DNA from: Nitrospira sp.
Lineage (GTDB): Bacteria > Nitrospirota > Nitrospiria > Nitrospirales > Nitrospiraceae
NCBI GenBank assembly: GCA_029865485.1
Contig: JAOUGT010000009.1
Span: 1 to 37,074, forward strand
DNA length: 37,074 nucleotides
Direction: 5' to 3'
A program made the position numbers and the translations under genes. The notes beneath the pieces are model-generated. The model did not search any database and was not told the DNA's origin. It saw only the letters and a program-made list of their open reading frames with translations. This document shows, one piece after another, positions 1 through 23,784 of this stretch (within the stretch, counting starts at the first letter, position 1; each line of letters opens with the position of its first letter).

Positions 1-1237
1 GCGGAGTCACGATGATCACTAATTCCGTTTCACTCTTCTGGAAGGAGCTACTGCGAAACAAGGCACCGAGAATCGGCACTTCTCCGAGGAACGGAACCTT
101 TTTGACCGATTCCCTGACGTTGTCACGCAGTAACCCGCCGATGGCGAAGCTCTGTCCATCCGCCAATTCGATCGTCGTTGCTGCCCTCCTGGTCGTAATG
201 GCAGGCACTACGAATCCCTGTGTTCGTAACGCATTTGTGAAGTCCAGCTCTGACACTTCCGGCGCGACATTCAGGCTGATGTGCTTGCTATTCAGAACAT
301 TTGGCGTAAAGACCAGCCCCACACCGAATTTCTTGAATTGAATCGTAACCAGACCAAAGGCTTGCGGCACGGGAATCGGAAACTCACCACCGGCAAGGAA
401 GGCCGCTTCCTGTCCATTCAGCGCCATCAAGGTTGGCTTGGCCAATACTTTCAGCAGATTTTCTTCTTTGAGGGCATCGACAAATCCAGTCCAAGACGTG
501 CTCCCGGCATTGAATCCAAACGCGCCTTGGATCACTTGCGTCGCTTCTGTGACTATGGTTGCCGTCTGCCCGATCGGATGACTCAGACTGGCAAGTCTCG
601 TCAGATTCGCCAATAGCGACACACCAAAGTAGTCATTGCCGATTCCAGTAAAATTGATCCCGAGCCGTTTGATCAATTCACGATTCATTTCAGCGACGCG
701 GACTTCCAACATGACTTGCTGCACACCGCCCACTTGCATCGCATTCACTATCTTCTTCGGCGCATAGGCTTCAGCCATGCTCAAGGCCCGATTCAAATTG
801 TTGGCATTCGAGGCAGTGCCCGAGAGCGTGATGTGATCGTGGTCGGAAGTGACCAGGATGCCCTGTTCTTCCGGCAAGATCTTATGTAGGTTTTCTTTCA
901 AACGGGTGACATCCGGCGCGATCACTACGTCGTACATGCCCATCATCTTGCCGCTCTCATTCCAGAGCGTCAGGTTTGTCACTCCGGTCGTCTTGCCCGT
1001 CAGATAGATCTGGGTCGGAGAGAGCACGACCGTGTCGGCGACATCTGGATTGGCCAACGACGCCCGCTTGATCGCTACAGGCAGATCCAATACCTTCGAT
1101 TTCCCCACGGTCAGCTCAAGCTTTTGAATATCGCGCTGCTCAGTAGCTCCCGCAACCGGATCCTGCCCAAAGGCTTGAGCCCCAGCCAAGATCGTGAGGG
1201 TACAGCCCATGATCGTAATCATATTGCGTAAATTCAT
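1..1237 (-). CDS. cpaC: Tad/Flp pilus secretin, CpaC/RcpA family (3' end outside the window)
   Basis: This is an outer-membrane secretin expected to form the channel for the Flp (type IVb) pilus. I translated it from the minus strand; the ORF track missed it because it has no stop in the window. It has an N-terminal signal peptide (MNLRNMITIMGC, ending near AFGQ), then the pilus-secretin N-domain (VGKSKVLDLPVAIKRASLANP), a BON-like segment (DHDHITLSGTA, AEAYAPKKIVN) and the secretin domain, ending in the family hallmark LVIIVTP at the edge. About 412 codons are visible, so little is missing. GGAGG lies 9 nt before the ATG at 1237 but only 3 nt before the ATG at 1243, so I prefer 1237. It is last in the visible flp-cpaA-cpaB-cpaC order and would assemble with CpaB. 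The family assignment is secure. Confidence 0.92.
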   Translation of the reverse strand, partial: MNLRNMITIMGCTLTILAGAQAFGQDPVAGATEQRDIQKLELTVGKSKVLDLPVAIKRASLANPDVADTVVLSPTQIYLTGKTTGVTNLTLWNESGKMMGMYDVVIAPDVTRLKENLHKILPEEQGILVTSDHDHITLSGTASNANNLNRALSMAEAYAPKKIVNAMQVGGVQQVMLEVRVAEMNRELIKRLGINFTGIGNDYFGVSLLANLTRLASLSHPIGQTATIVTEATQVIQGAFGFNAGSTSWTGFVDALKEENLLKVLAKPTLMALNGQEAAFLAGGEFPIPVPQAFGLVTIQFKKFGVGLVFTPNVLNSKHISLNVAPEVSELDFTNALRTQGFVVPAITTRRAATTIELADGQSFAIGGLLRDNVRESVKKVPFLGEVPILGALFRSSSFQKSETELVIIVTP

Positions 1238-1275
1238 CGCCATATTCCTCCAGCTTCCTACCAACCTTCCGATTG

Positions 1276-1908
1276 TTAAAACTTCACTGCATTCACCGAT
1301 GTCCCCTTGATCACTTCGACCGTCACAGACTGCACATCATGAGGCACCTTGGTTCCAGGTGGTTCAGGATAGATCTTCAGAAAGTTCAGGATCTTTTTTG
1401 GCGCATAGGCTTCCGCCACCGCCAAGATCTGGCCCAGGCGGGCCTCACTCGACACGGTCCCGAACACCGTCACATGGTCGTGGGTTCCCCTCAGGCGAAT
1501 ATTCGTCTCATCCGGCAATAATTCTGCCAACTGCTGCTTCAACCGGACGATGTCTACTCCGACATCGAGATCAAGGATGGCGAGCACCTGGCCATCTTGT
1601 CCCCACAAGGTGAGGTTCGTGGTGCCATAGCCTTTCCCAGTCACGTAGATCTGTTTAGGACTCAGCACCATGGCATCGGCAATCTGCGGATCAGCCAGCG
1701 AGGCCCGTTTGATCGCCACAGGCATATCGACCACGGTCGATTTGCCGACTACTAGGTTCAATTGTTGGGCTTCCTTAGACTGCGAGATAAGATGCAGGCT
1801 TGCATTCTTTGCCATGATGGCTGAAGGGCCCGTCAGAAGAACCCCGCTGCACACCAGGACCGTTACCCATCGTCCACGAACACTTGATCGATGCTGTGTG
1901 ACCTGCAT
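1276..1908 (-). CDS. Secretin N-domain-only paralogue (pilus assembly protein, CpaC N-terminal type)
   Basis: A 210-aa exported protein that aligns closely with the first ~150 residues of the adjacent secretin: VGKSTVVDMPVAIKRASL matches VGKSKVLDLPVAIKRASL, and AEAYAPKKILN matches AEAYAPKKIVN. It has a signal peptide, the T2SS/T3SS pilus N-domain and a BON-like segment, but no secretin beta-barrel. Its last residues (VEVIKGTSVNAVKF) instead resemble the C-terminus of CpaB (VEIIKGDVRKEITF). The ORF track starts at 1992, but an ATG at 1908 preceded by GGAGG with a 7-nt gap begins right at the signal peptide and avoids overlapping cpaB. It lies 19 nt downstream of cpaB in the same operon. Inference: an accessory periplasmic ring protein or assembly factor made by partial duplication of cpaC. 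Confidence 0.85.
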   Translation of the reverse strand: MQVTQHRSSVRGRWVTVLVCSGVLLTGPSAIMAKNASLHLISQSKEAQQLNLVVGKSTVVDMPVAIKRASLADPQIADAMVLSPKQIYVTGKGYGTTNLTLWGQDGQVLAILDLDVGVDIVRLKQQLAELLPDETNIRLRGTHDHVTVFGTVSSEARLGQILAVAEAYAPKKILNFLKIYPEPPGTKVPHDVQSVTVEVIKGTSVNAVKF

Positions 1909-1927
1909 TGCCGTGCCTCCCTGACTC

Positions 1928-2743
1928 CTAGAACGTGATTTCCTTACGGACGTCACCCTTGATGATCTCGACCCGGAACCCGCCTTCCCCATTAGTCATC
2001 GGCTTGGGGCGGTATGAACTTAAGAGCGATCCAACCTGAGCGCCCTTGGTCAACACCTTCTCGCTATTGAGCGGATTCCGTAAAGCGAGTCGCAGCTTCC
2101 CTTGATTGGAGGCCAGCGCCAGCTTCTCCGCCTCATCTACATCCACTTCCACGGTAATGACCTGGACCTGTTTGGGTTCTTCATCTTTGCCCTTTCGCTC
2201 CATTTGCGTGCCAGCCGCCAGGACCTTCACGTTCTCCAAGATCATCTTTGCCATCGCATGGCCTTGTTTGCCCGCATCCGGCTCGATCGTCACCATCACG
2301 TCCACGCGATCGGCCGGCTTGATGAACCCAGCGACTCCGATCACATCATCGACTTTCACCGACATGGCTCGCTTGTTCGGATCCGTCACTGCCGCCACTC
2401 CGCCGACCGCCCCTACCGGTGCCAGCTTTGATTCCAGCAGCATCTCGTTTCTCCTTAAATCTACGAGCAATACCCGGTCTTTGACGGCCTCAACACTTGT
2501 AAAGTGTCCTTCAGGAATTATCCCGGTGGGCATCTCCTGAGCCAGCATCATTTCGGGCGTCAATTTCGTTCCCCAGGGAATATCCGCATTGGCCACCAGG
2601 ACTTGCACATTTTTGCCTGTGGGCAATGCAGCTGCCAGCAGCCGGCTTTTCTCGTTCTGGAGCCATGAGAACACGAGGACGCTGGTGATGACCCCCAGCA
2701 CCACCGCCAATCCGAAAAACACCAGAGGCCGATACCGCTTCAT
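1928..2743 (-). CDS. cpaB: Flp pilus assembly protein CpaB/RcpC
   Basis: A 271-aa CpaB-family protein. An N-terminal signal anchor (PLVFFGLAVVLGVITSVLVF) is followed by a SAF domain (VLVANADIPWGTKLTPEMM, about residues 48-110) and the RcpC domain (NKRAMSVKVDDVIGVAGFIKPADRVDVMVT), ending in VEIIKG. CpaB proteins are periplasmic or outer-membrane-associated partners of the CpaC/RcpA secretin. The start at 2743 is supported by AGGAGG about 9 nt upstream. The gene lies between the prepilin peptidase and the secretin genes on one strand, as in canonical tad operons. The length is normal for the family, and I see no disruption. Confidence 0.95.
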   Translation of the reverse strand: MKRYRPLVFFGLAVVLGVITSVLVFSWLQNEKSRLLAAALPTGKNVQVLVANADIPWGTKLTPEMMLAQEMPTGIIPEGHFTSVEAVKDRVLLVDLRRNEMLLESKLAPVGAVGGVAAVTDPNKRAMSVKVDDVIGVAGFIKPADRVDVMVTIEPDAGKQGHAMAKMILENVKVLAAGTQMERKGKDEEPKQVQVITVEVDVDEAEKLALASNQGKLRLALRNPLNSEKVLTKGAQVGSLLSSYRPKPMTNGEGGFRVEIIKGDVRKEITF

Positions 2744-2846
2744 TGCCCTTCCTCCTCTTTCATCGCTGCCATGTGAGTGTTCTTGCTATTCACATTCATG
2801 GTTCTCACTGCCACCTGTCCAACCATAGCCGAGTTCTGTGTAATGC

Positions 2847-3371
2847 CTACCCCCCGAAGGGTTGGATTCCTCCGAGAAACAGTAGGGTGCCGGCAGCAAT
2901 CGCCAGCCCGTACCGTAACTTGAAGGGAAGTTGTAACTCCCCCATCCCGGTCGATCCTCCGGTCACGAATGCGCCATATGCCGCGAATGCCAATTTCCTG
3001 GATGTGGCGGCGAGGCCCCATTGATAGCCCATGGCACCCAGCGCATAGACGCCTCCCGCCATGACTGAAAGGAGGGCGACAGAGGTTGCGCCAAATGAAC
3101 CAACCATTGAACCAACCGCCGCCATTAATTTCACATCGCCGGCTCCGATGGCCTTGAAGGCATAGGGAAGGAGAAACAGCCCCATCCCCACACCAAGTCC
3201 GGCCATGCTAGACAAGGCACCCTCCGGTCCTCCTACCCAGGCCTGAAGCAGAATACCGATGCCGATTGCCGAAAAGGTGAGCCAGTTTGGAATACGAGAC
3301 CATCGAAGATCGTTGTAGACTGCCATGATAAGCAGCATGGTCAGCGCGAGGATCAGTATGGGTTGCATCAT
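2847..3371 (-). CDS. cpaA: Prepilin peptidase, A24 family (CpaA/TadV type)
   Basis: A 174-aa polytopic membrane aspartic protease that would cleave the Flp prepilin leader. Both catalytic-aspartate contexts are present: YNDLRWSRIPN with Asp21, and the GxGD signature GAGDVKL with Asp79. The short length and the absence of the N-terminal cysteine-rich methylase domain of PilD fit the CpaA/TadV branch. About five hydrophobic segments are visible. The likely substrate gene, flp, lies directly upstream, separated by a strong hairpin. The start at 3371 (ATGATG) has only a weak Shine-Dalgarno sequence, consistent with low expression compared with the pilin. Confidence 0.92.
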   Translation of the reverse strand: MMQPILILALTMLLIMAVYNDLRWSRIPNWLTFSAIGIGILLQAWVGGPEGALSSMAGLGVGMGLFLLPYAFKAIGAGDVKLMAAVGSMVGSFGATSVALLSVMAGGVYALGAMGYQWGLAATSRKLAFAAYGAFVTGGSTGMGELQLPFKLRYGLAIAAGTLLFLGGIQPFGG

Positions 3372-5663: not shown

Positions 5664-6674
5664 TTAGGCCGCAGAAAATATGCGGCGATCGAGCCCATGC
5701 TTATGGAGCAACCGCTGGAATGCACGGCGCTCTTTGCGTGCGGCGCGGGCCGCTTGGGAAATATTCCCCTGATGTACGGAGAGCAACTTGCTCAGATACG
5801 TCCGCTCGAATTCGTCGATCATCTTCGCCTTCATCGCCTGAAACCCGCACTGACCTATGACCATCTCCGTTGGCCCCTCCGACACAACCGTCGCTGCGAC
5901 TCCAGCCGGCTCATGATCAGGCAGGTCCAGGTCGGCCGCCTCAAGAACATCGCCTATCGCCATCGCTACCGCGCGATGAATCACCGCTTGCAACTCCCTC
6001 ACATTCCCTGGCCACGCATAGTTCATCAACTTCATCATCGCGTCTGCCGATAGCCGGACTGCTCCCTTACCGAATTCTTCCGCGGAGCGATCCACAAAGT
6101 GCTTGGCCAGATCGGAAATATCTTCCCGTCGGTCACGCAGTGGAGGAAGCACTACGGACAACACATTCAGACGATAGAACAAGTCTTCCCTGAATTGGTG
6201 GGCTTCGACCAAATATCGCAAGTCCGTATTGGTCGCAGCCACGATCTTCACATCGACGGCGCGACTTTTGGTGGAACCCAGCGGCCTGAATTCCTGATCC
6301 TGAAGGACACGCAACAGTTTGCTCTGTGCCACCATGTTGAGACTGTTGATTTCGTCGAGGAACAGGGTCCCGCCATCCGCTTCATGAAACAACCCGTGTT
6401 TCTCGGCGAGGGCACCGGTAAATGCTCCCTTGCTGTGGCCGAATAGCTCGTTCTCCACTAGATGATCCGGCAGGGCCGCGCAATTCACGGGCACGAACGG
6501 TTTACCCCTCCGCTCACTGGAATAGTGAAGCGCTCGCGCAAATAGTTCTTTTCCTGTTCCAGTCTCTCCTGAAATCAAGACTGTCGACTTAGAGGCGCTC
6601 AAGCGCGGGATCATGTTCTTTGCCTTGAGAAAAGATTGGCTATTTCCGATGAATAGTTCGTCCCATTGCGACAT
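5664..6674 (-). CDS. Sigma-54-dependent activator, AAA+ plus Fis-type HTH, no sensor domain
   Basis: A 336-aa bacterial enhancer-binding protein. The AAA+ domain begins almost at the N-terminus: Walker A GETGTGKE (residues 36-43), the sigma-54-contacting loop GAFTGA (83-88), Walker B GGTLFLDEI (101-109) and the WPGNVREL motif. The C-terminal Fis-like helix-turn-helix is NISQAARAARKERRAFQRLL (about 304-323). There is no receiver, GAF or PAS domain, so activity must be controlled by expression, by a partner protein or by DNA context, as in PspF/HrpR-type activators. The ATG at 6674 follows AAAGGAGA with good spacing. A ~120-bp sequence upstream resembles the one upstream of bcsA, which suggests a shared regulatory circuit (inference). 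Confidence 0.93.
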   Translation of the reverse strand: MSQWDELFIGNSQSFLKAKNMIPRLSASKSTVLISGETGTGKELFARALHYSSERRGKPFVPVNCAALPDHLVENELFGHSKGAFTGALAEKHGLFHEADGGTLFLDEINSLNMVAQSKLLRVLQDQEFRPLGSTKSRAVDVKIVAATNTDLRYLVEAHQFREDLFYRLNVLSVVLPPLRDRREDISDLAKHFVDRSAEEFGKGAVRLSADAMMKLMNYAWPGNVRELQAVIHRAVAMAIGDVLEAADLDLPDHEPAGVAATVVSEGPTEMVIGQCGFQAMKAKMIDEFERTYLSKLLSVHQGNISQAARAARKERRAFQRLLHKHGLDRRIFSAA

Positions 6675-7203: not shown

Positions 7204-7908
7204 TTAGAAGGGAACATACACTTCTAACCCGCCGTATGCTCCATTGAGGAACGTTTGGGAGTATTGATAGCCGCCCTTGAGTGTCAGGTAAAACCACCCA
7301 ATCGGTACCTGGGCAATGGGTCCGGTTTGCACGGCATAGAAATCCTTATTCCCCATACCGGCAATATCCCAGCCAAGATAGAGAGAACAGCAGTTCTGGT
7401 CGTTCTTATACACCAGCCTGGTCGCCCTCAAGCGGCTCCAGACTAACCCATCCAAGTTGGTATAGGAGACGATCGCATGAACAGTTCCCTGTTCATGCCA
7501 CCGAAAGGCTTCCCCTTGCAGTTGGAAACCGATGTCCTGTTCATGGCTCTTGCCTCCGCCCACTAGATCTGCCTGTTTCCATCGCAATTGAGGTCCTGCA
7601 AACCCTAGGACAGTCCAAGGCCCTTGCCGGTATTTCAATCCGAGGGCCGGTGTGGCGAATTGAACCTCCGCATCGCGGATGGTACCGCGATCCTTAAAGG
7701 AATACCCGAGCCCAGCTCCCATAAATTGGACAAAGGGCTGTAGATTCGAAGATGTGGCCATGATGGGAGTCCGGACACCCATGTAGGCGTAATACTGGCT
7801 GTGGTCGTCCATCTGAAACCCGGTAAAGACATCCCCGGCCCCTGCGATGCCAGGCCAGGATAGAACTGCCGCGAATATCATGCCGCACGTGCGGTGAGTT
7901 CTTGCCAC
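7204..7908 (-). CDS. bcsS: Cellulose biosynthesis BcsS-like outer-membrane beta-barrel protein
   Basis: A 234-aa protein with a Sec signal (MARTHRTCGMIFAAVLSWPG, cleavage near AGA) followed by a beta-rich body that opens with GDVFTGFQMDDHSQYYAYMG and ends with aromatic-terminated strands (GGLEVYVPF), typical of small outer-membrane barrels. The pattern and the position directly after bcsA match the BcsS family (CBP_BcsS), whose function is poorly defined. The start is GTG at 7908, with GGGAG 7 nt upstream inside the bcsA 3' end, giving a 31-bp overlap. An alternative ATG at 7881 would form an ATGA overlap but would lose the basic residues of the signal peptide. Recognition of BcsS is from memory of the family pattern. 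Confidence 0.72.
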   Translation of the reverse strand: MARTHRTCGMIFAAVLSWPGIAGAGDVFTGFQMDDHSQYYAYMGVRTPIMATSSNLQPFVQFMGAGLGYSFKDRGTIRDAEVQFATPALGLKYRQGPWTVLGFAGPQLRWKQADLVGGGKSHEQDIGFQLQGEAFRWHEQGTVHAIVSYTNLDGLVWSRLRATRLVYKNDQNCCSLYLGWDIAGMGNKDFYAVQTGPIAQVPIGWFYLTLKGGYQYSQTFLNGAYGGLEVYVPF

Positions 7909-10148
7909 TTTTCGGCTCCCTTCTCTACCCGTTCAATCGTGAATCCAGCCAAGGTCCCATCCTCGCATTGTTGTACCCACTTCCGCTGTACACGCAAGGA
8001 AAATGAGTCAACGTACAACATGCCATTCTTTCCAATATGGTCAGGCGTGCCAGGAATATACACTGAGAGTCCTGCCGGAGAAACCTTATCCACCGTACCG
8101 GTCATGATGCGATCACGAAAGGCAAGGCGACAGTTGTGCCGGTACGGGCGACGACCATGCTGCCGATACGACACTCTGGACTTGGCGAACAGCTTCCGAA
8201 ATGCTCGAACCACAGTCCACAAGCTCCGGAATATCCCGGGCTCACTATCGGCATGATTCCAGACGGAAGAATCCGAAAATGTCATCGCGATCAGCGCTTC
8301 TGTGTGTGCTTCATTCATATGAATGAATTTCAGCCCGAGTTCCCGCAGATTCGGTGAGAGTTGTGTTTGGCGACATATGGTGGCATCCAGCGAAAGTGGT
8401 GCTCCGGTTGGATTCTTGATGATGCATCGCAGATCATCACGATCATTCCGCACCTGGTGACGCACAAGAACCCTAGCACCAGTTTCATTCACGTCGATGA
8501 TGAGGGCCTTGAGATGTTGTTTGTCGGCGACAATGTCACAGGTCATGCGCCGCTTGATGCGGAACTGTGCACGCCATTCCGGTGATTCTGCAGCCGCCAA
8601 GATTGCGACCGTGATAAGCACCAGATTGATACCGCCCCACAACAGGCTGACTCCTAATCCAGGAATTGGGATCTGTTCCCACCAAAGGCGTATTCCCATG
8701 ATTAGCCCCATTAACAGCAGTCCCATGATAGTGAGGTGAGGCAGCACACACGAAACCCGCGACAGACCTCGATTATCCTGTCCAACGCCCTTGGGGGTAA
8801 TGACAAATGGTCGCCGTTTCCGAGGGCGGAGCGCCGTTTTGAGGGTTGCCCAGCTGAGGGCCACACTGTCAGCTGTTTCATAGATATCAGACCAGAACGC
8901 ATTGCGAGTTCCTCGGCTGACGGTACGCAACATGACAAGCGTCGCGAGGTAATATGACCCAAAGAAATTGATAATCGAAGGAACATCTGCCGTGACCGGC
9001 ACAATATTGAACAGCAGTGTGAACAACGGTGCCACCAGGCAGATGACCCGCGGGATTCCATGCAGAAAGTAGAAAATGGATGCAAAATAGCCCAATCGCT
9101 GAGCCAGACTTAGTCCTCTCATCGTGAATGGATTCGACTGAAATAGGATCTGGACATGACCGGTCGCCCAACGAATCCGTTGCTTCATCGTGTTTTCGAA
9201 CGTCTCCGGCATGAGACCGACCGCTAGAACTTTATTGAGGTAACAGGAGCGATACCCTTTGGCATGAATGACCATACTAGTATGGATATCTTCCGTCACG
9301 GTCTCCGTCTGAAACCCACCGACTTCCTCCAAGACGCGACGACGAAGCAGGCCACAACTTCCGGCAAAAAAGGCACTGTTGTGTCGGTCTCGCCCTGATT
9401 GCAGCACCCGATAGAACAGACTCTGCTCATTCTTGAGGATGTGCTCGCTCCTGAGATTCTTCTGGAAAATGTCAGGATTATAGAAATGGTGTGGCGTTTG
9501 AACGATGGCGACTTGCTCATCCTGAAAAAGCCCCACCGTCTCATGCAAAAACTCGCTCACAGGAACATGATCCATATCGAATATGGCAATGAGATCCCCG
9601 TTGGTCTGCAGGAGGGCATGATTTAAGTTTCCGGCTTTGGCATGGAGCCGATTTACTCGTTGTATGTATCCACAGTTGAGGGATGCTGCGAGGTGTCGAA
9701 CCTCATCTCGTTGTCCATCGTCAAGCACGTAAACTCTATAGCGATCTTTTGGATAGCGTTGGTTGATGCAACCAACGAGAGTACGGCGAAGAATGTCGAG
9801 CGGCTCATGCACGACTGGCACAAAAATGTCCACGGTCGGATAGCCAGTCAGAGGCACCGATCTTCGATCAAGCGGAGCCCATGCGTGATAGGCAAAGAGA
9901 ACTACCTGAATAAACGCGTAGATTTCCGCGGCATAGACCATCCCACCAACCAGAAGACTAAGCCAATCGCCGCTATTGAAGGTGTAGAGTCCACGCCACA
10001 CCAGATACCTGGTGTAGAGGAACAGGGTCAACACCAGAATGATCTGCCGCCCTTGCTTTCTCCAGCTCAGCAAGCTGATTGCAGCCAGTACAATCAGTGA
10101 CAGCGGTATAGCGACCGACGGATCATAAAAGTTGTTCATCCAGTTCAT
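7878..10148 (-). CDS. bcsA: Cellulose synthase-like glycosyltransferase BcsA with two PilZ-like domains
   Basis: A 756-aa inner-membrane processive GT2 polymerase. N-terminal TM helices precede the catalytic domain: LDDG (142-145), FDMDH (the DxD motif, 191-193), TED (285-287) and QRIRW (the QxxRW motif, 323-327). Further TM helices follow to about residue 520. A PilZ domain (c-di-GMP receptor) begins near 526 with R530xxxR534 and DVNETG, where the usual Ser is Asn. A second PilZ-like segment follows with R666xxxR670 and KVSPAG (688-693). Tandem PilZ-like domains are unusual for BcsA, which normally has one. No bcsB, bcsC or bcsZ is nearby; only bcsS follows. The product may therefore be cellulose or another beta-glucan. 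The start at 10148 has AGAGG 9 nt upstream. Confidence 0.93.
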   Translation of the reverse strand: MNWMNNFYDPSVAIPLSLIVLAAISLLSWRKQGRQIILVLTLFLYTRYLVWRGLYTFNSGDWLSLLVGGMVYAAEIYAFIQVVLFAYHAWAPLDRRSVPLTGYPTVDIFVPVVHEPLDILRRTLVGCINQRYPKDRYRVYVLDDGQRDEVRHLAASLNCGYIQRVNRLHAKAGNLNHALLQTNGDLIAIFDMDHVPVSEFLHETVGLFQDEQVAIVQTPHHFYNPDIFQKNLRSEHILKNEQSLFYRVLQSGRDRHNSAFFAGSCGLLRRRVLEEVGGFQTETVTEDIHTSMVIHAKGYRSCYLNKVLAVGLMPETFENTMKQRIRWATGHVQILFQSNPFTMRGLSLAQRLGYFASIFYFLHGIPRVICLVAPLFTLLFNIVPVTADVPSIINFFGSYYLATLVMLRTVSRGTRNAFWSDIYETADSVALSWATLKTALRPRKRRPFVITPKGVGQDNRGLSRVSCVLPHLTIMGLLLMGLIMGIRLWWEQIPIPGLGVSLLWGGINLVLITVAILAAAESPEWRAQFRIKRRMTCDIVADKQHLKALIIDVNETGARVLVRHQVRNDRDDLRCIIKNPTGAPLSLDATICRQTQLSPNLRELGLKFIHMNEAHTEALIAMTFSDSSVWNHADSEPGIFRSLWTVVRAFRKLFAKSRVSYRQHGRRPYRHNCRLAFRDRIMTGTVDKVSPAGLSVYIPGTPDHIGKNGMLYVDSFSLRVQRKWVQQCEDGTLAGFTIERVEKGAEKWQELTARAA

Positions 10149-10590: not shown

Positions 10591-11649
10591 GTGAGAAACC
10601 TATCACTCGCTGGGATGGTTGCTGGCATCGTCGGCTTATCCATACTCTTGTTCATGGCCCCCCCCTTCAGCCTTACCGGTCCATCCGGAGAGACGCCTGA
10701 TTCGGAAGCAAAGACACGGGTGGTCGCTACGGTTGGTACACGCACGATCATGATGTCGGAAGTTGAACAGGCAGTCGCTCTTCCGCTGTATCAGCTGGAC
10801 GAGCGGCGGACAAAGTTGCTGAATGACTCAATCCAGCGACTCATCGATGAGGAACTCCTCGCGGCTGAAGCGGCCAGAAGAGGCATCGCCGTTCCAGACC
10901 TTATCGCTAACGCGAGGGAATCTGAAGCGATTACCAAACTAGCCGGTCTGCCTGGCCCAGTCCGCCAAGCAACGCACCCATCTCAGAAAGAGGCACTGGC
11001 TCTCTCTCTTCAGACCCCGGAGGAGACAGCTCGAATCCGCCAGGCACTCCTAGTCCAATTGCGGCGCAAAACCGCTATCCAAGTGAATCTTCCACAAGCA
11101 GCGCTCCCCCTGCTAGAGGTCCGTGCGGATGACGATCCCTGGACCGGCACAGACCACGCTCCCGTCACGATCATCGAATTCTCTGACTTTGAGTGTCCCT
11201 ATTGCCGACGGAGTGTTCCCACCCTCAAGGAGCTCCTGGATAAATATCCAGGCAAATTGAAGCTGGTCTATCGTGATTTTCCAGGGCTGAATCACCCGCA
11301 GGCCCTGTCGGCCGCTGAAGCGGCCCAATGCGCCGCTGAGCAAAACCGGTTCTGGGACTATCATGATGCGTTGTTCAGCCGCCAACGATCGGAAGACGCC
11401 TGGGATTTTTCTAACCTGGCTGAAACCCTGGGCCTGTCGCCTGAGCCATTCACCAGCTGTATGAACAACCACCGCTATCGAGCAGAAGTGTTGAGTGATC
11501 TGCAGGATGGGCTGAAGCTTGGCGTGACGAGTACGCCGACGTTTTTTATTAACGGACGCCCCTTAGTCGGGGCTCGACCGCTTGCAGATTTTCAAGCCAT
11601 CATTGAGCCGCTTCTCACGAACCCCTCTTCGCCTTACCCCCACTTGTAA
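10591..11649 (+). CDS. Exported DsbA-family thioredoxin-fold protein with a SurA-N-like domain
   Basis: A 352-aa protein with a GTG start preceded by GAGGGGG. A signal anchor (MVAGIVGLSILLFMAPPF) is followed by an alpha-helical region, residues ~44-165 (VATVGTRTIMMSEVEQAV and RLIDEELLAAEAARRGI), that reads like the N-terminal chaperone domain of SurA/PrsA. The C-terminal half is a DsbA/Thioredoxin_4 domain: DFECPYC with the redox pair Cys202/Cys205, and the cis-Pro loop STPTFFING near residue 313. It should act in the periplasm as a thiol oxidase or isomerase, possibly with chaperone function. No dsbB-like partner is visible. The domain assignment is secure for DsbA and tentative for SurA-N. 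Confidence 0.88.
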   Translation: MRNLSLAGMVAGIVGLSILLFMAPPFSLTGPSGETPDSEAKTRVVATVGTRTIMMSEVEQAVALPLYQLDERRTKLLNDSIQRLIDEELLAAEAARRGIAVPDLIANARESEAITKLAGLPGPVRQATHPSQKEALALSLQTPEETARIRQALLVQLRRKTAIQVNLPQAALPLLEVRADDDPWTGTDHAPVTIIEFSDFECPYCRRSVPTLKELLDKYPGKLKLVYRDFPGLNHPQALSAAEAAQCAAEQNRFWDYHDALFSRQRSEDAWDFSNLAETLGLSPEPFTSCMNNHRYRAEVLSDLQDGLKLGVTSTPTFFINGRPLVGARPLADFQAIIEPLLTNPSSPYPHL

Positions 11650-18757: not shown

Positions 18758-20776
18758 CTAGCATTGTTGAGTAGCGGATCGTGTATGTCGAACCAAGTTG
18801 GTTGGCTGAGGGGCGATCCGCAGCCCAAGATCCTCGACCAGGGCGCGAAGAGGTTCTGCAACAGACCAGGCCTGTGCCGGGCAACCGCGTGGAGCATGCG
18901 GGTGGTCTCCATCGAATATCTCCGATACGTGGCCAAGGCAGGTTTCCCCGAGACTCACTTCTATTCCTTTCAGAAATGACCGCGCCTCACGTTTAGTCTT
19001 GGCGGTACAGCCGAATGTATTCACCCAAGCGGTCACAAATGATCCCAAGAGGAACGGCCAGACAGTTCCCTGATGGTAGGCGCTATCCCGCTCGGTCGGC
19101 CCCCCTTCGTAGCGTGGCCGATACCGACTGTCCCGAGGTGACAATGTTCGAAGGCCCACCGGGGTAAGAAGTTGTTCTTTGACCATCCGAAGAATCTGCG
19201 TGGCCTGTTCGTTCGTCAACAGATCATCGCACAGAGAGATCGCATACACCTGATTGGGACGGATCGAGATATCGTCCCCTTCCGGTCCATCGATGGCATC
19301 GTACAGATACTGTCCACCCTTGTACCAGAATCGCTGACGGAACGATGTGACGGCTCGTGTTCTATCCTTCCAACAGCCGACTGCGTAGTCCCGATCACCA
19401 AATTTCTCAGCCAAACATGCGCCAACCTGCAATGCCCGAATCCACAAGGCTTGAATTTCTACCGGCTTTCCATGCCGCGGAGTGACGACCCAATCCCCGA
19501 CCTTGGCATCCATCCAAGTCAGCTGTATCCCAGGCATCCCTCCGGTAATCAGCCCATCGGCATCCATCTTGATGTTGTATCTCGTCCCGTGACGATAGCC
19601 GTCGAGAATCTGTCTAATAGCCGGCCACGCGACGACTTGAACACGTTTCGTCTCCTTGCTGTAGGCCAGATAACGATCGACGGCATGGATAAACCAGAGG
19701 GACGCATCAATCGCATTATATTCAGGATCTTGGCCGAGATCGGGGAAACGATTCGGCACCATGCCTTTTGACACAAAAGGGATGAAGGATTGAATGATAT
19801 GCCAGGCAGCCTCGTACTGCCCGGTCACTAAGAAGAGGCCTGGTAATGAGATGAAGGTGTCCCGCCCCCAATCTGTAAACCATGGATATCCAGCGATCAC
19901 CGTCTGCCTCGAACCCTGCTGGGCGAGGAAGGTACCGGAGGCTTGCCGGAGTGCTTCGGCAAAGCGGTCAGGACTCTGTGTGGCCTTGTGATGGCTCACC
20001 CGCCAGGCACGTTGCGTCCGAATGAGTTCTCCAGTCTCACTATCATCAACCGCTTCGCTGGTCAGCACGAGAACCTGTTCCTTGCCAGGCCCCAATTGGA
20101 ACAGCACTTCTCCTGGAGACCACCAGTCTTCTTGAAAATCCAGCCCACGCTCTTGTTCGAGGGGAAACCGCACATGCCGATACCACTCGGAGGCATGGCG
20201 ATACACTCCGGTGTGTCTGCAATGCACGGCAGGAAGGCTCTGGTAGGGCTGCCAGGTCACCCACTGGCCGGTGACCGTCGCTTCAGGAGAAAGCGCTCCG
20301 TTTTCATGGTGAAGAGCATGATAATCTCGGCCGGTGATCTTCGGGCGTACCAGCAGCTCAATTGAATCGGTCGTTGGTGTAAGCAGTCTCCATCTCACCA
20401 CAACCGTGCTTTGATTCCGCACACAGAAGATTTCACGGCTGACAGTGTGATCGTTGACTCTAAACGTCCAGGTTGGCCAAGGTGTCGATGAAAAAGCGAC
20501 GCAATATCTATAGCCTCGAGGATGGATCACACCGGGATACAGATTCGTCGAGATGGAAATCGAGCAGCCATCCAGATGAAGCCATTCCTCTAAGTGATTG
20601 ACCAGCACGTAGCGATGGCGTCCGGGAGATGTCGACACTACCAACAACCCATGATAGCGGCGTGTATTGGCGCCGGCCACGGTGCCTGACGCAAATCCTC
20701 CGCACCCATTCGTCTCCAGCCATTCCAGACTCAGCGCACGATCGAGATCCTGGCATTCGTCTTTACCAATCCGCAT
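18758..20776 (-). CDS. Amylo-alpha-1,6-glucosidase (glycogen debranching enzyme, archaeal/bacterial type)
   Basis: A 672-aa cytoplasmic enzyme that hydrolyses alpha-1,6 branch points of glycogen. The N-terminal domain opens with LEWLETNGCGGFASGTVAGANTRRYHGLLV, the typical GDE_N start. The C-terminal (alpha/alpha)6 barrel has GYPWFTDWGRDTFISLPG and YHQGTVWPFLLGSFVTAW. GAGGG lies about 8 nt before the ATG at 20776. It follows the glucosidase gene by 62 bp on the same strand, which suggests a shared glucan-degradation unit. The length is normal for the family. Confidence 0.92.
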   Translation of the reverse strand: MRIGKDECQDLDRALSLEWLETNGCGGFASGTVAGANTRRYHGLLVVSTSPGRHRYVLVNHLEEWLHLDGCSISISTNLYPGVIHPRGYRYCVAFSSTPWPTWTFRVNDHTVSREIFCVRNQSTVVVRWRLLTPTTDSIELLVRPKITGRDYHALHHENGALSPEATVTGQWVTWQPYQSLPAVHCRHTGVYRHASEWYRHVRFPLEQERGLDFQEDWWSPGEVLFQLGPGKEQVLVLTSEAVDDSETGELIRTQRAWRVSHHKATQSPDRFAEALRQASGTFLAQQGSRQTVIAGYPWFTDWGRDTFISLPGLFLVTGQYEAAWHIIQSFIPFVSKGMVPNRFPDLGQDPEYNAIDASLWFIHAVDRYLAYSKETKRVQVVAWPAIRQILDGYRHGTRYNIKMDADGLITGGMPGIQLTWMDAKVGDWVVTPRHGKPVEIQALWIRALQVGACLAEKFGDRDYAVGCWKDRTRAVTSFRQRFWYKGGQYLYDAIDGPEGDDISIRPNQVYAISLCDDLLTNEQATQILRMVKEQLLTPVGLRTLSPRDSRYRPRYEGGPTERDSAYHQGTVWPFLLGSFVTAWVNTFGCTAKTKREARSFLKGIEVSLGETCLGHVSEIFDGDHPHAPRGCPAQAWSVAEPLRALVEDLGLRIAPQPTNLVRHTRSATQQC

Positions 20777-20838
20777 CAGCAGACCCTCGTCGTCCGTATC
20801 TCGTCGCTTGCGAGATACGTTTCACGAATGACGCCCCC

Positions 20839-23520
20839 CTACTCGCCGCTCTGCTGGATGAGCTTCGCGACTAGTCCGGTCCATCCGGTCTGATGGCTGG
20901 CTCCAATCCCAGCCCCATTATCTCCATGGAAGTACTCATAAAATGGGATGGCATCTCGCCAGCACGGATCATCCTGAAATTTCCTGATCCCGCCGTACAC
21001 GGGACGTCGTCCAGTTGTATCACGGAGAAAGATATGCGTCAGTCGACGAGAGAGCTCCGAGGCCACCTCGTTCAGCGAAACGAAGTGACCTGAACGTACG
21101 GGGTACTCCACCCGATACGCCTCACCGAGAAAGTAATGGAACTTTTGGAGGGATTCGATCAGCAGATAGTTGACGGGAAACCAAATAGGCCCTCTCCAGT
21201 TTGAATTGCCCCCGAAGAGCCCGGTACCAGATTCAGCCGGTTCATAATCCACCCGATAGTCCCTCCCCATGATCGATAAGACATAGGGATGGTCCTTGTG
21301 GTAGCGCGAGAGGGCACGAATGCCATAAGGGGAAAGAAACTCTTCCTCATCAAGCATGTACCGCAACACCGACTTGAGACGCACCGGATTGACGAGGGAG
21401 AGAAACCGTCGTACTTCTCCATCCTGTGAATGGGTCTCAACATGTGCGCTAAAATCCGGCCGGTTCTCAATAAACCACTGCATCCGATGTTTGAATCGCG
21501 GGAGTTGGTCGATCAACTCGGAGTCCAAGGTTTCTACGGCGAACAGCGGAATCAGGCCGACCAGAGACCTCACCCTCAAGGGGCAGGTCTGTCCATTCGG
21601 AAGATGTAGGACGTCATAAAAAAATCCATCGTCTCTATTCCAGAGCTCAATCTTCTCTCCCCCGATGTTGTTCATGGCTCGACAGATATAGACGAAATGC
21701 TCAAAAAACTTGCTCGCCACATCCTCGTACGCTCGATTATCCCGTGCCAGTTCCAGTGCGATCGACAGCATATTGAGACAATACATTCCCATCCAGCTTG
21801 TCGCATCCGACTGTTCAATATGGCCGCCGGTCGGGAGGGGAGCACTTCGATCGAAGACACCGATGTTGTCGAGGCCCAAGAATCCTCCCTGAAAGATATT
21901 TTTCCCTTCGGCATCCTTTCGATTGACCCACCAGGTAAAGTTCAGCAGCAACTTGTGGAACACGCGTTCGAGGAAGACCCGATCCCCGACTCCTCTCCGC
22001 TTCTTCTCGATTTTGTAGACTCGCCAGGCAGCCCAGGCGTGGACCGGAGGATTCACATCTCCAAACGCCCATTCATAGGCAGGCATCTGCCCGTTCGGGT
22101 GCATGTACCACTCACGGAGCATGAGGATCAGCTGCTCCTTGGCGAAGGTCGAATCGACGAGGGCCAAGGGAATACAATGGAATGCCAAATCCCACGCGGC
22201 GTACCAGGGATACTCCCACTTGTCCGGCATTGAAATCACATCGGCATTGTAGAGGTGTGTCCAGTCGGAGTTTCGTCCATGCAGCCGCTCGTGAGGCGGA
22301 TCCGGCATCCCTGGGTCACCCATAAGCCAGCGTTTCAGATCGTAGTGGTAGAACTGTTTGCTCCACAGCAACCCCGCGAAGGCTTGCCGTTGAACGAGCT
22401 TCGCGTCCTCGGAGAGATGTACCGGAGCCAAGTCATCATAGAACTCATCGGCCTCCTGGACCCGTTGGTCAAAGAGTCCGTCGATGTGCTTCTCACTGAA
22501 CACTTTCGGATCCGACTCATTCGTCAGGCAGAGACGAACGCTATCCGATGCCCCAGGAGCTAGGGTCAACATATACTGCGCGGCCGCCTTCGACCCGATC
22601 TTCCCAGGGTTCACCGCATCGATCTGTCGATGGATGATGTAATCATGCATGCTGTCCTTCACGTGCTTTGAGCCTTCCCGATCTCCATACAACCGTCGGG
22701 AGTTCGTCTCGTTTTCCGTGAACAGCAACGGTGGCCTTCGCTCACACCAGAGAAAACGCTTCCCGTAGTACTCATGCTCCAGTTCAATCACACTGAGGTT
22801 CTTCGCCGTGGTTCCTTCACGCATTCGTGGCCGACGGGCATCAAGTCCCCACGACCACGTATTTCTGAACCAGAGGGTCGGCAAGAGGGTCAACTCGGCA
22901 TGTTCAGGCCCCCGGTTCGTGACATGGATCCGGATGAATAGCTCCTCCGGCGTCGTCTTGGCATACTCCACCACGACATCGAAGTAGCGATCCTCATCAA
23001 AGACACCCGTATCAATGAGCTCATACTCCGGATCTTGCCGCCCACGACGGCGATTCTCCTCAACCAACCTGGCATAGGGAAATTCAGCCTGTGGATACTT
23101 ATACAAATACTTCATGTATGAATGGGTTGGCGTTGAATCTAAATAGAAATAGTATTCCTTGACGTCTTCTCCATGATTCCCTTCATTGCCCGTCACGCCG
23201 AACACCCGCTCCTTCAAAATGGGATCCCGGCCATTCCAAAGCGCAATCGCGAAACAGATGTATTGATGACGATCCGAAACACCGGCAAGTCCGTCTTCAT
23301 TCCAGCGGTAGGCACGAGAGCGAGCATGGTCGTGCGGAAATGCTTCCCACGCCGTGCCATAAGGGCTGTAGTCTTCCCGAACCGTCCCCCAGGCCCGTTC
23401 GCTCAGGTATGGTCCCCAGCGCTTCCAATGCCGCTTCCGAAGCGCATCCTCTTCCAGCCGTTGCCGTTCAGCACCATGAGGAGCCTGGGAACGAGAAGAC
23501 TTCTGACCTGGTTTCCCCAT
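20839..23520 (-). CDS. MGH1-like/GH63-related glucosidase
   Basis: An 893-aa protein matching the large bacterial glucosidases with a GH63/MGH1-like barrel: [21 protein letters not shown] near the N-terminus, [86 protein letters not shown]-like segments and a C-terminal [21 protein letters not shown]. No signal peptide, so cytoplasmic. The ATG at 23520 has GGAG 5-6 nt upstream and is preferred over the track start at 23574. Substrate specificity (trehalose-like, glycerate glucosides or maltodextrin) cannot be deduced. Confidence 0.9.
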
Positions 23521-23784
23521 AAGAGCTCCATGCTCCCCACAAAAGCAGGCTGTGCGCGGGTGACTACGATGCACCCAATGGACATCGGAATCAAGCGTGC
23601 AGTCCGTCGAGGCACTTCAACTCAAGTCCCTCTTCGGTCTTTTGCCCCATTGTCTGAATTGCACGGAATCAACCAAGAGCGGAATTCACCCGAGCTCTGG
23701 CGTCAGCCTCGCTGGATAGGGAAGAGTTCCTTGATGGTCCGAGAAGACGATGACGGGAGACAGATAGGGATAATGCTCAGAAAC

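Follow-up and report, generated by a model that had tools for sequence, protein, structure and literature searches.

The structurally characterised cellulose synthases of E. coli (type II) and Rhodobacter sphaeroides (PDB 9b8v, 4hg6, 4p00) have, in common with the protein considered here, a GT2 core, channel helices, a gating loop, the R580/E371 tether and a PilZ domain following the membrane region. They have a single PilZ domain, four N-terminal transmembrane helices and an obligate partner, BcsB, to which E. coli adds the BcsC porin. In Rhodobacter BcsA, E371 and R580 are the residues of the autoinhibition bridge (PMC5567048), and in E. coli the BcsB anchor is held in a groove formed by TM1-3 of BcsA, with at least this tail anchor being required for activity in vitro (PMC11470070). 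BcsA proteins that dispense with BcsB are already known. The cyanobacterial BcsA/XcsA (type IV; XcsA-XcsB-TolC) bears PilZ and lacks BcsB (PMC12430437), and has a single PilZ domain, an HlyD-like partner and an endoglucanase. Clostridial ccsZABHI likewise includes a BcsA-like GT2 with PilZ, and is without BcsB, BcsC or BcsZ homologues (PMC7710045); it is Gram-positive and has a CBM-type CcsB partner and O-acetylation genes. BcsS figures in the literature as one of the extra components encoded at bcs loci (PMC9693552). Proteins with two PilZ domains are known too, and PilZ is expanded in Nitrospira moscoviensis, to as many as 33 PilZ-like genes (PMC11800159).

The locus described here is in a window of 37,074 nucleotides, the whole stretch of DNA that was analysed, from a Nitrospira MAG. 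Nitrospira are key nitrifiers living in flocs and biofilms. A bcsA-type gene there overlaps a bcsS gene (Table 1), and from sequence and structural modelling its product is probably the catalytic subunit of a cellulose synthase that lacks BcsB, is controlled by c-di-GMP and is encoded by a two-gene operon, bcsA-bcsS. In contrast to the E. coli and Rhodobacter proteins it has two PilZ domains, three N-terminal helices and no BcsB. The tandem PilZ domains and the pairing with BcsS set it apart from the cyanobacterial and clostridial systems, and BcsS (PF17036), elsewhere an extra bcs-locus component, is its sole recognisable partner. Two consecutive PilZ domains also occur in YcgR-like proteins and others of the double-PilZ kind, but in Nitrospira they form part of a cellulose synthase, and both had full motifs in the ancestral form. 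The open-access literature searched yielded no description of a tandem-PilZ BcsA paired only with BcsS, nor of cellulose machinery in Nitrospira, and while the lack of BcsB has precedent, the combination of tandem PilZ with BcsS-only pairing appears to be undescribed.

Table 1. Features of the bcsA-bcsS locus (window coordinates; residue numbers are those of the synthase)
Feature	Coordinates	Strand	Basis
bcsA-type cellulose synthase catalytic subunit, tandem PilZ	7878..10148	minus	756 aa ORF
Three N-terminal transmembrane helices (residues 10-89), BcsA TM1 absent	9882..10121	minus	AF2 helices 10-29, 34-55, 62-89; hydropathy
GT2 catalytic domain (residues 105-330), DDG, DMDH, QTPHHF, TED, QRIRW	9159..9836	minus	Pfam PF13641 E 2e-24; motifs kept in alignments
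E315, equivalent of Rhodobacter E371 (gating-loop tether)	9204..9206	minus	phmmer alignment to 4hg6
C-terminal transmembrane helices and gating loop FVITPKG (residues 364-518)	8595..9059	minus	AF2 secondary structure; alignment to solved BcsA
PilZ domain 1, PilZ1 (residues 526-624)	8277..8573	minus	Pfam PilZ 43.7 bits alone; AF2 strands 535-609 and helix 613-624
RxxxR of PilZ1 (R526, R530; R526 = Rhodobacter R580)	8559..8573	minus	invariant in 28 sequences; 4hg6 alignment
PilZ1 second motif DVNETG (D552..G557), DxNxxG instead of [D/N]x[S/A]xxG	8478..8495	minus	motif comparison
Linker helix between PilZ1 and PilZ2 (residues 639-654)	8187..8234	minus	AF2
PilZ domain 2, PilZ2 (residues 662-755)	7884..8165	minus	AF2 strands 667-743 and helix 745-755, pLDDT ~88
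RxxxR of PilZ2 (R662, R666)	8151..8165	minus	invariant in 28 sequences
PilZ2 second motif KVSPAG (K688..G693; D to K, S and G retained)	8070..8087	minus	motif comparison
bcsA end / bcsS start overlap, 31 bp	7878..7908	minus	coordinates; translational coupling inferred
bcsS, predicted outer-membrane 12-strand beta-barrel, 234 aa, GTG start	7204..7908	minus	orthologue PF17036 matches; AF2

By sequence and modelled fold the window protein is a BcsA-type GT2 synthase. It matches TIGR03030 (NCBIfam) with an E-value of 3.7e-168 and 560.8 bits, which is below the equivalog cut-off of 699.1; the tandem-PilZ relatives tested score 553-599 and BcsB-linked Nitrospirota BcsA proteins 804-814. Pfam identifies GT2 domains and PilZ, the latter matched in two stretches. 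The solved folds closest to its AlphaFold (AF2) model (mean pLDDT 86.4) are, by Foldseek, those of E. coli and Rhodobacter BcsA, with TM scores up to the 0.79 reached with E. coli BcsA. The core sequences VLDDGQ, FDMDH, VTED and QRIRW and the gating-loop FVITPKG are all conserved. E315 and R526 line up with the two residues of the Rhodobacter autoinhibition bridge, and the glutamate at the former position, within PET or PES, is retained throughout the tandem-PilZ family.

Evidence on the product comes from sister lineages. BcsG is a phosphoethanolamine transferase of cellulose, and a tandem-PilZ BcsA adjoins it in four sister Nitrospirota lineages (G067, G108, G212 and G303) whose synthases form one clade (96/95). 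BcsG was scored in three of the four neighbours (E 8e-133 to 6e-143) and the G108 neighbour is the same 506-aa gene, judged by the start of its sequence. Since these synthases adjoin a cellulose-modifying enzyme, the product of the synthase family is most likely cellulose. A sequence-only reading of the window had raised the prospect of a different beta-glucan synthase, and a precedent is Sinorhizobium BgsA, a PilZ-less BcsA relative that is c-di-GMP controlled and makes a different, mixed-linkage glucan (PMC5567048). The score below the CelA equivalog cut-off and a genome without BcsB or BcsZ are in keeping with such a product, but it is unlikely given that every BcsA motif is kept, that the best fold matches are true cellulose synthases, that the BcsS family carries a cellulose biosynthesis annotation and that the sister clade is linked to BcsG, even though BcsG is absent from the Nitrospira genomes tested.

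The same reading had remarked on the lack of bcsB and export genes nearby, and this extends well beyond the window. PF03170, the BcsB family model, has no match in the genome itself (an 86%-complete MAG), in 13 further genomes, 10 of them with this synthase and including the complete N. moscoviensis genome and others 99% complete, or among the Nitrospira genomes listed from a phylum sample. Searches of the genome itself for BcsC (PF05420) and BcsZ (PF01270) gave no match either; BcsB and BcsC or BcsZ are the components by which canonical bcs systems (types I-III) are recognised. Positive controls are provided by 20 genomes of other groups in the phylum sample, where PF03170 scores above its cut-off, with E-values down to 1e-122. 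That sample comprises 296 Nitrospirota genomes, 59 of them with BcsA. BcsB above the cut-off is found in none of the 24 genomes with tandem-PilZ BcsA versus 17 of the 35 with other BcsA, an anticorrelation with p 1.6e-5 among the 59 BcsA-bearing genomes by a statistic that ignores relatedness; across all 296 genomes it is not significant (p 0.48). It is possible, if somewhat doubtful, that an equivalent of BcsB is encoded elsewhere, by a gene in the 14% of the genome that is missing or by one too diverged from, or unrelated to, the Pfam model. Non-homologous stand-ins exist in cyanobacteria and Clostridia (HlyD-like XcsB, and CcsB), and the MAG is incomplete, but the family has no match even in the 13 relatives, and the model performs well elsewhere in the phylum.

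The N-terminal membrane region bears on the same issue. The TIGR03030 match begins at profile position 39 in the window synthase and at 35-58 in tandem-PilZ proteins, compared with 7-10 in BcsB-linked Nitrospirota BcsA, the late start being due to absence of the first N-terminal helix. As TM1 forms part of the groove for the BcsB anchor, its loss from the tandem-PilZ family fits the loss of BcsB, by analogy with the E. coli groove. Because that anchor was needed in vitro, a BcsB-less synthase may require some other helix. A cellulose synthase that functions without BcsB would reveal what the catalytic subunit itself needs for chain start and export.

The two PilZ-like segments noticed in the sequence, at residues 530-560 and 666-693, were placed correctly to within a few residues. 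In the AF2 model each is a complete PilZ fold of six strands and a helix (535-624 and 667-755). A single PilZ fold, or an adjacent bcs operon, had been named beforehand as an outcome that would overturn the proposal; neither was seen. For PilZ2, the six-strand barrel with C-terminal helix and the motifs are present in the model, with K in place of D. Searched alone, PilZ2 of the window protein scores just 18.8-18.9 bits, under the Pfam cut-off of 22.5, and the same segment in relatives reaches 54.7 bits, with 7 of the 10 tested above the cut-off. RxxxR is kept in both domains, and the deviations reported earlier (NETG and KVSPAG) are borne out, the second motifs being DxNxxG and KxSxxG in the window copy.

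These deviations are local. Both second motifs are [DN]xSxxG in ten distant relatives (L076, L081, L078, G165, G213, G067, G108, G212, G172 and G303), and N. moscoviensis has the canonical form in both domains. The S to N change in PilZ1 is found in most Nitrospira, while the D/N of PilZ2 is lost (to K, Q or E) in the window's subclade only. With canonical pairs in deep relatives and in N. moscoviensis, two sites are taken as the older state. Most simply, on the basis of sequence, two canonical c-di-GMP sites would be ancestral and the window copy an eroded version. The proposal of altered c-di-GMP control, like those of two PilZ folds and a missing BcsB, has the support of the model and of the family and genome searches; the motif deviations belong to Nitrospira or the window's subclade and not to the ancestral form. 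With S to N in one motif and D to K in the other, the affinity of the window protein for c-di-GMP may be low.

The conserved motifs and fold suggest that the GT2 domain would polymerise UDP-glucose into beta-1,4-glucan and thread it through the protein's own membrane channel. In the absence of c-di-GMP, R526 of PilZ1 would tether E315 and keep the gating loop closed, in the manner of R580-E371 of the Rhodobacter enzyme, and c-di-GMP at the RxxxR motifs would free the loop. PilZ2 could be a second c-di-GMP module, or a docking surface, at the far end of the tail; the protein would ancestrally have had two sites, and the motifs are weakened in the window copy. PilZ2 probably makes the response sharper or favours the open state, tasks that fall to BcsR, BcsQ and BcsE in E. 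coli. The genome encodes c-di-GMP signalling genes, with 6 GGDEF and 27 PilZ matches. It is quite conceivable, though short of an even chance, that PilZ2 has lost c-di-GMP binding and serves instead in protein interaction or dimerisation, leaving control to PilZ1 alone. Non-binding PilZ domains that act through protein contact are known (PMC11800159), and both the weak Pfam score and the loss in the window's subclade of the acidic or amide residue from the first motif position would suit such a role. Against this, the RxxxR of PilZ2 is unchanged in all 28 aligned sequences, almost every one has the S and G, and most relatives retain [DN]xSxxG. Paralogues and close relatives differ in whether the motifs of each PilZ are intact or eroded, and offer a natural series on the role of a second c-di-GMP site.

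Judged by its orthologues, the gene at 7204-7908 probably belongs to the BcsS family, as the sequence-only reading had it. A Pfam search of the window copy itself gave no match, and PF17036 (CBP_BcsS) matches 8 of 10 aligned orthologues (best E 1.5e-8) that are 43-77% identical to it. The AF2 model (pLDDT 84.8) has an N-terminal signal-like helix followed by the 12 strands, and its Foldseek neighbours are outer-membrane barrels with TM scores of just 0.3-0.56, so no closer relationship is claimed. BcsS accompanies the synthase in 14 of the 16 synthase-bearing Nitrospiraceae genomes of the phylum sample, and the synthase is present in 14 of the 15 genomes with a strong BcsS match (Fisher p 5e-21, a statistic that ignores kinship). 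The pairing is not strict. Tandem BcsA occurs without adjacent bcsS in G307 (on 2 contigs) and on G013:C103, and G250 retains bcsS with the synthase gone. No BcsS match was found in plasmids. The barrel most likely aids exit of the chain or anchors it, replacing BcsC. A stronger proposal, of a minimal two-gene cellulose machine in which a two-sensor synthase works without any BcsB, BcsS is the sole dedicated outer-membrane exit and two-site binding replaces BcsE, BcsQ and BcsR, is speculative and rather unlikely to hold in full.

The bcsA-bcsS pair is present in dozens of Nitrospira MAGs and in the complete genome of N. moscoviensis NSP M-1, where the synthase gene is intact, and such conservation argues against a chance arrangement. 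Beyond Nitrospira it is sparse (L076, from Myxococcota/Deltaproteobacteria, L081, G165 and G213). It is very improbable that the window copy is a non-functional gene in decay. The second motifs of both its PilZ domains deviate, PilZ2 is lost in G285 and bcsS is missing in G307, but the 756-aa frame is intact with all catalytic residues present, and same-length copies 67-73% identical to it share the identical 31-bp overlap with bcsS (L049, L050, L053 and L055). A tree of catalytic domains has a weakly supported split with the tandem forms together on one side; a BcsB-linked clade (100/100) and a clade with fused GH8 (100/100) are separate from them. The tandem form L078 falls elsewhere, and so a single origin is not proven.

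Several relatives differ in their organisation. Between bcsA and bcsS, L038 (5875-6654), L079 (10271-11026), L072 (10271-10741) and L074 (2994-3794) have an extra gene that is a free copy of the PilZ tail, with two PilZ-like domains in L038, L079 and L074, the first being degenerate in L038, and a partial version in L072. The 893-aa BcsA of L062 (8001-10682) has a third PilZ-like domain (762-845) at its C-terminal end. A 60%-identical BcsA in the complete genome G285 (L133:5829-8364) is without PilZ2 and part of PilZ1, and is followed by a weakly MinD/ParA-like gene, with no BcsS there. In the BcsB-less genome G146 a BcsS gene sits between two BcsA genes (L129:3705-8688). In L136, L137, L138 and L140, from BcsB-less Nitrospirota genomes, the tandem-PilZ BcsA is immediately next to BcsG. 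A second kind of BcsA, a GH8 cellulase-GT2-PilZ fusion of about 1130-1230 aa, occurs in L042 (5386-10407), L043, L044, L045, L046 and N. moscoviensis (G059); the next gene encodes a TPR protein that matches BCSC_C weakly, and there too BcsB is absent.

Elsewhere in the window, Pfam identifies Flp/Tad pilus genes at 1-3371 on the minus strand (pilus-formation N-domain, RcpC/CpaB and A24 prepilin peptidase). Downstream of bcsS, at 5664-6674 on the minus strand, is the gene for a 336-aa NtrC-type sigma-54 activator that has no receiver domain and stays next to the synthase in the close relatives L033 and L051. A search for sigma-54 promoter sites gave one match, with 6.4 expected by chance, and none upstream of bcsA, so no regulatory claim is made. 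The divergent neighbour of bcsA, at 10591-11649 on the plus strand, encodes a protein whose SurA-like N-terminus is joined to a thioredoxin domain of the DsbA type, and L032, L033 and L034 also have this gene next to the synthase. Further away, at 18758-23574 on the minus strand, genes for a glycogen-debranching enzyme and a GH63/MGH1-like glycosidase are in tandem; L035 has relatives of these immediately upstream of bcsA, and L042 has them near its GH8-BcsA fusion.
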